In this document: in pieces, positions 26,692 to 30,887 of the stretch
Position numbering within the stretch: the stretch's first letter is position 1
How the letters are laid out: the number at the start of each line of letters is the position of its first letter
Source: Desulfurococcus amylolyticus Z-533
Lineage (GTDB): Archaea > Thermoproteota > Thermoprotei_A > Sulfolobales > Desulfurococcaceae
DNA: 64,000 bases
Assembly: GCF_000513855.1 (NCBI RefSeq)
Contig: NZ_KI911318.1
Coordinates: 1,179,327 to 1,243,326, forward strand
Direction: 5' to 3'
The notes under the pieces: generated by a model
The model's database searches: none
Seen by the model: only the letters and a program-made list of their open reading frames with translations
Told to the model about the DNA's origin: nothing
Position numbers and translations under genes: made by a program

Positions 26692-29193
26692 ATGCAGTCG
26701 AGCAAGGTTGATACTGATATAAGAGATCCCTTTATAGAGTTTGTCAAATGGAGTAGTCTCGACGTAAACGAGAACGCTAATAAATACATGGGTCCAGGCA
26801 GCTTCTTCAGCTACCTGCTCGAGGAATACATGAAGCGCGACATACTAGGCTTGCTTCCAAGTCACATCCTTAAAGCACATAGGGATGGATTAATATATAT
26901 TCACAAACTACCCCAGAGCATATACATACCCTACTGCACCGGGCATAGTATGGCAAGGCTACTTGAGAAAGGCTTGAAGACCCCTACAGTCATCTCCCGT
27001 CCAGCAAGACACTTCGACACATTCGTAGACCACGTGGCTAACTACCTGATCACACTCCAGCACTATTTCACAGGGGCGCAGGCTTTCTCCAGCGTCGAGT
27101 GGTACGCGGGTCCATTCATAAGGAGCGATGGATTAGACTACCGAGGGGTAAAGCAGAATATCCAGAGGCTACTCTATAATTTAAACTATCCAACCAGGAT
27201 AGGTTTGCAAACCCCCTTCACGAACTTCACGATAATAATGGATGCATCGAGGAAAGCCCTCGAAGGAGACTACGCCGTCTACGATGGTAAGAAAACCGAG
27301 CCCCTTGGGGCATATGAGAAGGAGGCTAAAATCTTTCTCTTAGCCCTTTTCGAGAACTATATGAATGGGGACAGCGTAGGGCAACCATTTACATTCCCAA
27401 TTCCCACCCTAATGACCACATCTAAACTACTCTGGGAGGATCCAGAGATATATGAAGCGGTATTCAAGACGGCTGCAAAACGCGGAAGCTTCTACTGGTT
27501 AAACACTAGGGTAGTAGACCCGGACGCCAGTTATGCAATGTGCCTGCATAGCGGTGAGAAGATACTCATCAACAACGATGGCGAAGTACACGAGCTGACG
27601 ATGGGAGAGCTGGTGGAGAAGTACGCTGGTGGAGTAGAGGCCGTGGACCCGGATGGGGCGACATGGTATAAGCCGGCTAGGGAGTTCAAGGTGCTGGCGT
27701 TCAACCCCGAAACAGGCGAGGTAAGCTGGAGGCCTGTGAAGAGAATCCTAGTGAAGAAGTCTAGGAAAGCCGTCAGAGTCCAGCTTAGTAATGGCAGGGG
27801 CTTTGTGGCCACGCCAGACCACCCAGTACTGGTCTACAGGAGGAACCACAGGAGATACGAGCTGAGGAAGGCCAACGACATACCGAAAGACAGTAAGCTA
27901 CCAGTGTTACAGGCGGAAATCAGTGGTGAATACGTAGAGCTCAAAGGGGAAGTCGAGCTAGTGGTAGATGAGGAAAACCCCTCAATCGAGGCTTGGAAAC
28001 ATAGGATGAAGACAGGAAGTGTTGTGTGGGTCAGTATTAAGAGCATAGAAGAGGTGGAGCTTGAAAACGATGAACTGTTCGTCGACGTGGAGGTAGATGG
28101 GCCCCACTACTTCGTCCACAGCGGGGGCGTGATAACCCACAACTGCTGCAGGATTAGTATTCAGAAGAACGAGCTTCTCTACGCATACAACGGTGGCTTA
28201 ACGTTCTCTTTAAGCTCGATTAAAAAAGACGTTGAGGAAGCTAGGGAAGAATATTGGAACAAGCTTGAGAAGCAGAAGTTCGGCGGGCTGTGGGCAATGC
28301 CCGATATAACTGGGAGCGTAAATGTTGTAGATATCAATATTCCGAGGCTGGCTCTAGAGGCTAGAGGTAATGACACCAGATTCTGGGAGCTCTACGATGA
28401 GGCCTTGAAGCTGGTTAGGGAGGCTGTAGACTGGTTTAGAGCTAGGTATGTGAAAATATTGAAAGAATACCCGAATTTCTACTATATGATCACAGAATAT
28501 ATGCCTGAATTCCCCTCATCGCACTTCAACACCATAGGATTAATAGGGCTACCCGAGGCAGCCGCCATACTGCTGCAAGAGCCGAAGCTCTGGCTAGACG
28601 GAAATAGGAGCGATTGGCTCCGAGCAACAGAGTTGATGAGGAAGATAGTCGAGCACGCCACTAATACTGCTAGAAGATGGATGCGGGAGTCGGGCACCCC
28701 ATGGAATGTTGAGGAGGTCCCAGCCGAGTCAGCCTCACCCAAGATGGCGGCTCTAGACATGAAGCTATACCCTGAACTAGCAGATTACTTACCAGACTCT
28801 GATAACCCTGTATACTCGACCAGTATAGCCCCATACTATACCCCTGAAATGGAGCTCCCCGATAGAATCGAGGTTGAGGCAAGAGTCCAGAAGTACTTCA
28901 CGGGGGGCGTGATGATGCATATATTTCTAGCCGAGGAACCCGAGCCAGACGCATTGGCGAAGCTGGCTAAGAGAATCATGGATACCGATATCGTGTACTG
29001 GAGCTTCACCCCTGCATTAACATATTGCCCATCATGCGGGAGAACATACACCGGGTTATATAAATCCTGCCCGAGATGTGGAAACGAGAACATCGAGGTA
29101 TGGAGCAGGATTATAGGTTACTATAGGCCAATAAAGAACTGGAACCCCCAGAGGAGGAAGGAGTTCTGGACACGGAATCACTACGTCTTCTAA
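26692..29193 (+). CDS. nrdD: anaerobic ribonucleoside-triphosphate reductase NrdD (with intein)
   Basis: Oxygen-sensitive glycyl-radical enzyme that reduces NTPs to dNTPs. The 833-residue precursor splits into a 283-residue N part, a 201-residue intein and a 349-residue C part. The NrdD part has SRPARHFDTFVDHVANY, the CCRI cysteine pair right after the intein, a C-terminal zinc site (CPSCGRTYTG...CPRCGN) and the glycyl-radical loop RIIGYYRPIKNWN near the end. ATG at 26692 follows GGAGA; the frame opens 15 codons earlier but overlaps a TTAAATATC promoter. The gap upstream has an inverted repeat AGATAA/TTATCT (26585-26604). First gene of nrdD-nrdG-thyX. Confidence 0.95.
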   Translation: MQSSKVDTDIRDPFIEFVKWSSLDVNENANKYMGPGSFFSYLLEEYMKRDILGLLPSHILKAHRDGLIYIHKLPQSIYIPYCTGHSMARLLEKGLKTPTVISRPARHFDTFVDHVANYLITLQHYFTGAQAFSSVEWYAGPFIRSDGLDYRGVKQNIQRLLYNLNYPTRIGLQTPFTNFTIIMDASRKALEGDYAVYDGKKTEPLGAYEKEAKIFLLALFENYMNGDSVGQPFTFPIPTLMTTSKLLWEDPEIYEAVFKTAAKRGSFYWLNTRVVDPDASYAMCLHSGEKILINNDGEVHELTMGELVEKYAGGVEAVDPDGATWYKPAREFKVLAFNPETGEVSWRPVKRILVKKSRKAVRVQLSNGRGFVATPDHPVLVYRRNHRRYELRKANDIPKDSKLPVLQAEISGEYVELKGEVELVVDEENPSIEAWKHRMKTGSVVWVSIKSIEEVELENDELFVDVEVDGPHYFVHSGGVITHNCCRISIQKNELLYAYNGGLTFSLSSIKKDVEEAREEYWNKLEKQKFGGLWAMPDITGSVNVVDINIPRLALEARGNDTRFWELYDEALKLVREAVDWFRARYVKILKEYPNFYYMITEYMPEFPSSHFNTIGLIGLPEAAAILLQEPKLWLDGNRSDWLRATELMRKIVEHATNTARRWMRESGTPWNVEEVPAESASPKMAALDMKLYPELADYLPDSDNPVYSTSIAPYYTPEMELPDRIEVEARVQKYFTGGVMMHIFLAEEPEPDALAKLAKRIMDTDIVYWSFTPALTYCPSCGRTYTGLYKSCPRCGNENIEVWSRIIGYYRPIKNWNPQRRKEFWTRNHYVF
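27541..28143 (+). other. mini-intein in NrdD
   Basis: In-frame protein intron of 201 residues: Cys1 in CLHSGEKILI (block A), TPDH at residues 91-94 (block B), VDVEVDGPHYFVHS (block F) and the end GGVITHN with penultimate His and last Asn (block G), followed by Cys+1. No LAGLIDADG endonuclease blocks fit into the 85 residues between B and F, so this is a splicing-only form. Removing it joins DASYAM to CCRI, the expected NrdD sequence. Confidence 0.93.
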
Positions 29194-29235: not shown

Positions 29236-29988
29236 ATGCTCATCAAACTGATTGGTAGCGGGTGGAAGAATACCAGCCTAGTTGACGTCCACGGCTCCGT
29301 AACCTTTACGCTATGGCTCTGCATGTGTAACTTGAAGTGTCCATTCTGCCATAACTGGAGGCTTGCAAGCAATGAGGGTTCAATATGTAAGCCCCTAGAC
29401 ATCAGTAGGCTCCTCGATGATCTCTCAGCGAGCAGGAGCTTCATAGACTATCTTCATGTAACCGGTGGAGAACCACTGCTCCAATACACTGGCCTATCAT
29501 GGTTGTTTAAGGAGGCTAAGGAGATGGATGTGGCAACTAGTTTAAACAGTAATCTAACCCTTTACATGCCCCTTAAGAAGCTGGTGGATCAAGGCGTCAT
29601 TGACCATGTTGCAACAGACCTTAAGACCCCTTTCGACGAGTTATCAGGCCTCGGCGATGCATCGAATATATTATTTAAACAGTTCACGGAGTCGTTGAGA
29701 CTCATAGTTGAGAAAAACATCCCCCTCGAGCTTAGGATACCGGTTGCCAAAAACTTAACGTTCAAGACGCTGGAGAAGACACTGGAATCCATCATGCCTA
29801 CCCTCAGTAAACACGTGGAAAATACCGTTGTCATTGTGAACCCCCTCCTATCAAAGCCTCTCACTAATCCCCGTAGCGTAGAGTGGTGTGATAAATACTG
29901 TATGCCCAGCGAGGTAGAACTTGAAGGAGTCGCAGGTGTTTTTAGAAGGCTCGGGTTTAAGACCTTTATTAAAGAGGTGCCGAGGTAA
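29236..29988 (+). CDS. nrdG: anaerobic RNR activase NrdG (radical SAM)
   Basis: Generates the glycyl radical on NrdD. 250 residues; radical SAM motif CMCNLKCPFCHNW (CxxxCxxC from the second Cys) near residue 33 and the SAM-binding GGEP in VTGGEPLLQ near residue 78. It is longer than bacterial NrdG and resembles the archaeal PflA-like form. Lies 42 nt after nrdD and overlaps thyX by one base. Confidence 0.92.
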   Translation: MLIKLIGSGWKNTSLVDVHGSVTFTLWLCMCNLKCPFCHNWRLASNEGSICKPLDISRLLDDLSASRSFIDYLHVTGGEPLLQYTGLSWLFKEAKEMDVATSLNSNLTLYMPLKKLVDQGVIDHVATDLKTPFDELSGLGDASNILFKQFTESLRLIVEKNIPLELRIPVAKNLTFKTLEKTLESIMPTLSKHVENTVVIVNPLLSKPLTNPRSVEWCDKYCMPSEVELEGVAGVFRRLGFKTFIKEVPR

Positions 29989-30887
29989 TGGAGAAATACC
30001 TACCGCGGGCCCTCCTCGTTGCACATTTACCTGATACAAGTAGGATTATAGCATCTGCTTCAAAGCTCACCCTATCACCAAGAGACTTCACCTCGATTAC
30101 CGGGGATATGGATTATGTGAAAACCGAGGAGTGGATCAGGGAACTGGTTAAACGGGGCCATGGCTCTCCACTTGAGCACTCGATATTCATATTCGAAGTG
30201 ATATGTAGCAGGGTTTGCAGTCATCAACTAGTTAGACACAGACACGCCTCGTTCTCACAGCTGTCTCAGAGATACAGTGATAAATACCTGAGAAACATGG
30301 TGACGAAAATATTCGAGCACACCGGCAGAAATCCACGGGAAGCCGGTTTCAGAGAATACGTTGAGGCTATAGAGGGATTCCTAGATGCTGATCCAGGTTT
30401 CACCGAGTTATTGGAAGTCGTAGCTGAGGCGTTCATAATCCCGCCCAGCACGGTAAGGCTTAAGGATAAAGAATCCCTCAGGGCCATTATACAAGGAGTT
30501 AAATCCTACTATAAGGCACTCCTCAACGGGATTCCATATGAGGATGCAAGATACCTACTACCCCAGGCTGTGAAAACCAGGCTACTTGTATCAATGAATG
30601 CCAGAGAGCTCATCGAGGTATTTATTCCACTGAGAACATGTGCCAGGGCACAGTGGGAGATACGCAGCATAGCCTGGCAGATACTAGGTGAGCTGAATAA
30701 GGTTGAACCATTATTATTCAAGTACGCTGGCCCACGGTGCATCCTACAAGACAATAGAAGTAGGAGTAAGCCATGTACACTTAAAGATTACCTTGAGGGA
30801 GCATGCACACCCACCTTGGAGAGATGCCCGGAACTAGTGCCAAGGGAAAAAATACGGGAATGTATAAGTACCGCCTTAATAATTTAA
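29988..30887 (+). CDS. thyX: flavin-dependent thymidylate synthase ThyX
   Basis: Makes dTMP from dUMP using FAD and methylene-tetrahydrofolate. 299 residues with the ThyX motif RHRHASFSQLSQRYS near residue 84, LEHSIFIFEV before it and TRLLVSMNARELIEVF later. Forms an operon with nrdD-nrdG, joining the two steps of anaerobic dNTP supply. The C-terminal 30 residues are Cys-rich (ILQDNRS...CTLKDYLEGAC), which is unusual but seen in some archaeal forms. Confidence 0.95.
   Translation: MEKYLPRALLVAHLPDTSRIIASASKLTLSPRDFTSITGDMDYVKTEEWIRELVKRGHGSPLEHSIFIFEVICSRVCSHQLVRHRHASFSQLSQRYSDKYLRNMVTKIFEHTGRNPREAGFREYVEAIEGFLDADPGFTELLEVVAEAFIIPPSTVRLKDKESLRAIIQGVKSYYKALLNGIPYEDARYLLPQAVKTRLLVSMNARELIEVFIPLRTCARAQWEIRSIAWQILGELNKVEPLLFKYAGPRCILQDNRSRSKPCTLKDYLEGACTPTLERCPELVPREKIRECISTALII

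Follow-up and report, generated by a model that had tools for sequence, protein, structure and literature searches.

The anaerobic ribonucleotide reductase gene (nrdD) of Desulfurococcus amylolyticus Z-533 carries an in-frame insert directly in front of a conserved cysteine pair, which raises the question of what this insert is, how it reached its position and whether the cell depends on its removal. The window, i.e. the whole stretch of 64,000 nucleotides that was analysed, contains the following features at this locus, all on the plus strand:

26692..29193, plus strand: nrdD, precursor of a class III (anaerobic) ribonucleotide reductase with intein, 833 aa (open reading frame, NCBIfam/Pfam)
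26692..27540, plus strand: N-extein, last residues DASYAM, containing C82 (aligned with Cys125 of T. maritima)
27541..28143, plus strand: class 1 mini-intein, 201 aa (sequence, alignment, profile, fold)
27541..27576, plus strand: splicing block A with the C1 nucleophile (sequence; C1 shared by all 9 same-site inteins)
27772..27831, plus strand: splicing block B with TPDH, limits approximate (sequence; D93-H94 invariant)
27982..28011, plus strand: remnant linker where same-site relatives hold a homing endonuclease (alignment; within the low-pLDDT residues 128-158)
28069..28119, plus strand: splicing block F, limits approximate (sequence; conserved columns)
28120..28143, plus strand: splicing block G with the His-Asn end (sequence; H200 and N201 are invariant)
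28144..29193, plus strand: C-extein, first residues CCRI, with G809 aligned with the radical Gly621
28144-28149 (codons), plus strand: Cys pair aligned with C329/C330 of T. maritima (alignment; PMC4493059)
29236..29988, plus strand: radical-SAM gene, probably the nrdG activase (assigned by position and domain)
29988..30887, plus strand: thyX, flavin-dependent thymidylate synthase (domain search)

As judged from its sequence, the insert is very probably a splicing-competent class 1 mini-intein, representing an allele that has lost its endonuclease and its mobility, from a family of homing inteins directed at archaeal NrdD between Met and the Cys pair (M/CC site; the slash marks the point of insertion).

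The host reading frame extends from an ATG at 26692 to a stop at 29193, and its product matched the NCBIfam model of the anaerobic ribonucleotide reductase (PRK08579) with 1100 bits at a cut-off of 585. The Pfam NRDD match (E=2.7e-142) was split into two stretches around the intein splicing domain. The NRDD domain, the glycyl-radical motif, the Cys pair and a nearby probable activase gene, which together characterise class III ribonucleotide reductases, were all detected. A pseudogene, a chance reading frame and an assembly chimera were considered and ruled out by the single contig, the intact frame and the exact restoration of the empty site; a chance origin of the intein-in-nrdD signal is excluded. 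The nrdD gene is followed by the probable nrdG and by thyX, the start of which shares one base with the stop of the preceding radical-SAM gene, forming a compact dNTP gene cluster.

The insert is in frame with nrdD from its first codon at 27541 to its last codon at 28141-28143, beginning with CLHSGEK and ending with GGVITHN before the host residues CCRI. The junctions read DASYAM/CLHS...ITHN/CCRI, and removal of the insert gives DASYAMCCRI. The Pfam model Intein_splicing matched above its cut-off both in the whole reading frame (E=2.3e-13) and with the intein alone (8.3e-15), as did the NCBIfam models of the N-terminal and the C-terminal intein splicing regions. All residues of a class 1 intein are present (C1, TPDH, HN and Cys+1), the TPDH motif lying in the segment which we take to be block B. 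Among nine same-site inteins 40 columns are invariant, including C1, D93-H94, H200 and N201, while the Thr of TPDH is replaced by Ser in some of these alleles. The AlphaFold2 model of the intein, built from 11 sequences, shows a HINT fold (mean pLDDT 82) with a stretch of pLDDT below 50 at residues 128-158, the place where relatives hold the endonuclease, and the best Foldseek matches of this model were solved inteins (E down to 9e-12). The model of the whole precursor (mean pLDDT 76.7; below 50 at residues 484-538; calculated without an intein-free control) is too uncertain for placing the intein in the barrel. No LAGLIDADG match was obtained in the 201-aa insert, and the insert is the sole intein match in the whole genome. 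The preliminary description, which had recognised a 201-residue intein with blocks A, B, F and G and no endonuclease between DASYAM and CCRI, thus agrees with the sequence, the domain models and the predicted fold, and its coordinates, boundaries and length were exact.

Splicing itself, which we infer from the complete set of these residues, would start with an acyl shift at C1, followed by transesterification onto the host Cys+1, cyclisation of Asn201 with release of the intein and ligation of the exteins to restore DASYAM-CCRI.

Inteins usually sit in the most conserved motifs of their hosts. Among 629 four-residue stretches of 29 aligned NrdDs MCCR is one of 18 that are fully invariant, so by this measure the intein interrupts a motif that ranks among the best conserved of its host. 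When a profile built from 12 intein-free relatives was aligned to the NrdD of T. maritima (4coi; chain numbers as counted off in the printed alignment), MCCR fell on SCCR 328-331, and C82 and G809 of the window NrdD corresponded to Cys125 and Gly621, respectively. The T. maritima mutants C329A and C330A are inactive according to the available part of PMC4493059. The location of the +1 Cys in an essential motif of the host, which the preliminary description had assigned to the active-site region, is therefore well founded. In the NrdD of N. bacilliformis both cysteines matter as well, mutation of the second leading to cytosine. As to which of the two bears the radical, the alignment with MGCR of T4 would favour the second, whereas the formation of cytosine gives this residue the role of a redox partner (both from the same part of PMC4493059).

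The thioredoxin-dependent T. maritima type, NrdDh, is described there by the motif SCCR or MCCR, a hydrophobic finger-loop tip and a thiol reductant, with bacterial phyla alone listed, and MCCR is the variant given for the bacterial NrdDh4. The window NrdD carries MCCR aligned with the NrdDh motif position, which concerns the motif only, i.e. one of the three NrdDh criteria. The same four residues are found in each of the 38 archaeal NrdDs with an empty site in the set of named loci (L059-L108); the motif therefore extends past the bacterial groups listed in the available part of PMC4493059.

The distribution of the intein was surveyed in 61 genomes including that of the window; 43 had an NrdD match (counted from the table) and 42 of these were read, G058 being left out. 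An intein at the M/CC codon was present in ten of the 42 NrdDs (G000, which is the window's genome, G006, G008, G009, G014, G016, G017, G020, G024 and G026; the intein-containing nrdD of G017 is split over two contigs). The site was empty in 32, including those of the two congeners (G001 and G002), where it reads DASYAMCCRL. The 50 named NrdD loci taken from genome contigs comprise ten complete inteins at M/CC, 38 empty sites and two further cases, of which one (L098) ends at a contig edge inside the intein and the other (L108) stops before the site. A class-wide search with an intein profile matched 14 of 229 genomes, 13 of them at the M/CC site of NrdD; the fourteenth match (G003) was partial and not at the site, the NrdD of this genome being intein-free. 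In a phylum-wide sample of 398 genomes ten matched the profile, and the five new ones (G394, G439, G276, G252 and G241) all have the intein between Met and CC, in NrdDs that are partly quite divergent.

In total 18 genomes from several archaeal families were read with an M/CC intein. In 17 of them the intein has 349-412 aa, and the window's copy is the only mini form. The comparison of insertion sites in related NrdDs, which the preliminary description had proposed, thus revealed the same codon in 18 genomes next to empty congeners, and the window's intein shares with the others both the insertion codon and a homologous splicing domain. The intein precursor gave no match when scanned against the genome contigs, and a scan of viral contigs for the family yielded 113 pattern matches but no relatives by tblastn.

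A second NrdD intein site was noticed in the relatives (GMQ/CLS...GN/TPFTNF; 319-331 aa, Thr at +1). It is occupied in four of the 42 NrdDs read (G009, G014, G018 and G024), three of which also have an M/CC intein, and the second-site inteins are located at

L051:711-1682
L052:634-1626
L056:3827-4819
L032:882-1838

Furthermore, one NrdD open frame of 2826 aa (L129, around G241:C7:311910-312818) contains at least three inteins, whole or partial, before TFPIPT, at M/CC and after NPLTG.

The mini-intein aligns with full-length same-site inteins as far as VDEE and resumes at about KTGSVVW, the alignment being taken up exactly at either side of the gap. Of the four same-site inteins scanned, G008, G020 and L101 carry a LAGLIDADG_3 domain in the part that the mini-intein lacks, and G014 does not. 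Decay of the endonuclease is visible at the same site, the first LAGLIDADG motif being altered in G020 and G016 and both motifs being lost in G014; where examined, the endonuclease region of the 17 longer inteins was either intact or decaying. It is established, according to the part of PMC6801210 available, that the endonuclease of a fixed intein decays and that a mini-intein remains. The simplest reading is a deletion of the endonuclease in the lineage of the window. The window's intein has no endonuclease of its own to move it, and no LAGLIDADG_3 gene (PF14528) able to mobilise it was found elsewhere in the genome above the cut-off of 22.5 bits. The genome holds one LAGLIDADG_3 match below the cut-off (14.6 bits; L130, G000:C1:512793-512933), located in a 429-aa frame.

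At third codon positions the intein has a GC fraction of 0.662, more than any of the 48 other 201-codon stretches of reading frames in the window (maximum 0.572, mean 0.491, SD 0.043), suggesting a foreign origin; the exteins lie between 0.537 and 0.602. Horizontal acquisition of the intein is likely. The extein tree groups the window's NrdD with its two empty congeners, and the splicing-domain tree places the intein without support (UFBoot of 15-40 at the surrounding nodes), so that no donor could be assigned by tree, which leaves some room for a mini form that is ancestral or was transferred. In the latter case the endonuclease may have been lost elsewhere and the already shortened intein acquired from an unsampled relative through homologous recombination. 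The unusual third-position GC, the empty congeners and the unsupported position in the splicing-domain tree fit such an arrival; however, none of the other same-site inteins among the 18 read is a mini form, and no co-conversion tract was evident in the protein identity of the exteins. We consider it distinctly less probable than a loss within the lineage of the window.

The genome of 1.307 Mb is represented by one contig and is 99.78% complete. It gave no match to the catalytic family of class I/II ribonucleotide reductases (PF02867; the control was positive in 11 of 14 genomes), and a second NrdD was not found, leaving a single NrdD locus. Since no other ribonucleotide reductase was detected, dNTP synthesis must depend on splicing, as the preliminary description had claimed and as is now well supported. 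Unspliced NrdD is very unlikely to work because 201 residues part the Met from the Cys pair, and splicing would thus be needed for the dNTP supply of the cell. A dead insertion, i.e. a defective gene with an insert unable to splice, deserves next to no credence; no evidence for it was found, the frame is open, the catalytic residues are intact and the genome offers no other ribonucleotide reductase. The element presumably persists because only its exact loss at the M/CC codon leaves a functional enzyme.

The preliminary description had furthermore suggested that splicing could respond to the redox or oxygen state. Under such control oxidation would form a disulfide involving C1, Cys+1 or Cys+2 (or else C82) and keep the precursor unspliced, and reduction under anoxic conditions would free active NrdD. 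The precursor contains the cysteines C82, C284 (C1 of the intein), C485 and C486 and four more in a C-terminal zinc ribbon. As C1 is the only cysteine of the intein, a regulatory disulfide must use host cysteines, and C1 and the host pair do come together at the splice junction. Same-site relatives with extra cysteines exist, while G008, G009 and G439 have C1 alone. The entry 3nzm, a trapped DnaE intein, has a title that speaks of a redox trap, and in DnaBi1 of M. smegmatis a disulfide with the catalytic Cys forms and oxidation stops splicing, as given in the available part of PMC6195587.

Against this stand the missing second cysteine of the intein and the requirement of the host for CC, which was seen at all empty sites read; its presence is therefore no adaptation of the intein and is uninformative on regulation. 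Class 1 inteins ordinarily make use of Cys+1 as a nucleophile, and that of the window's intein is fixed by the host enzyme. Moreover, a strict anaerobe would rarely need such a gate. A redox response is possible by analogy, nothing in the sequence pointing to it, and gating of this kind appears very improbable. The same low estimate applies to a more elaborate scenario, in which the host's catalytic Cys pair would serve as splicing nucleophile and redox latch, a disulfide of C1 with C+1 or C+2 keeping the sole ribonucleotide reductase inactive and oxygen-safe and the endonuclease-free form being a domesticated switch. In this scenario reduction would free splicing just when the glycyl-radical enzyme can work. 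If true, redox-gated splicing would regulate the synthesis of DNA precursors at the post-translational level.

Splicing gated by temperature or substrate through intein-extein contacts appears somewhat less remote, though still improbable. It has a precedent in the RadA inteins of Pyrococcus and Thermococcus (available part of PMC5790916) and would suit a genus that is presumably hyperthermophilic, but the window's intein offers no residue-level evidence for it, and heat dependence alone would be no regulation in a cell that is always hot.

Taking the preferred reading of an endonuclease-deleted M/CC allele, the closest counterparts are the inteins of Desulfurococcaceae archaeon Bin S21 (L100/G008) and Thermoproteaceae archaeon Bin S10 (L101/G394), which share the insertion codon and a homologous splicing domain. 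With these and the nearest kin the window's intein is about 48-52% identical in the N part and 57-61% in the C part; both have 392-404 aa with a LAGLIDADG domain, whereas the window's intein has 201 aa without it. Among inteins of known structure the PolII mini-inteins of Pyrococcus (2lcj, 7oec and 5bkh) are the nearest in both sequence and fold; they are likewise endonuclease-free and hyperthermophilic but reside in another host gene and site, and their identity is about 20-23% when aligned by structure. Inteins of class II ribonucleotide reductases (e.g. NrdJ-1, 8ubs) share the type of host enzyme and a weak sequence similarity (E=1.2e-5), yet differ in reductase class and gene. Putative inteins in phage nrdD, mentioned in the available part of PMC3653736, occupy an anaerobic reductase gene as here, but in bacteriophages. 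The catalytic Cys of DnaBi1 could in principle form a disulfide like that of the window's intein; however, DnaBi1 is a class 3 intein with its own second Cys (PMC6195587, part available), whereas the window's intein is of class 1 with C1 only. The open-access literature, as distinct from most subscription journals and InBase, yielded no mention of inteins in archaeal NrdD.

The nrdD intein adds an ordinary new case to a known kind and is mildly interesting for its site and its essentiality. It shows that one intein family holds the essential cysteine-pair motif of the archaeal class III ribonucleotide reductase in many lineages, and the M/CC inteins make visible a series from the full homing element through decayed forms to an endonuclease-free form. 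With the window's copy comes a mini-intein that is compact and presumably heat-stable and, its host protein apparently being the sole ribonucleotide reductase, a natural case of survival depending on splicing.
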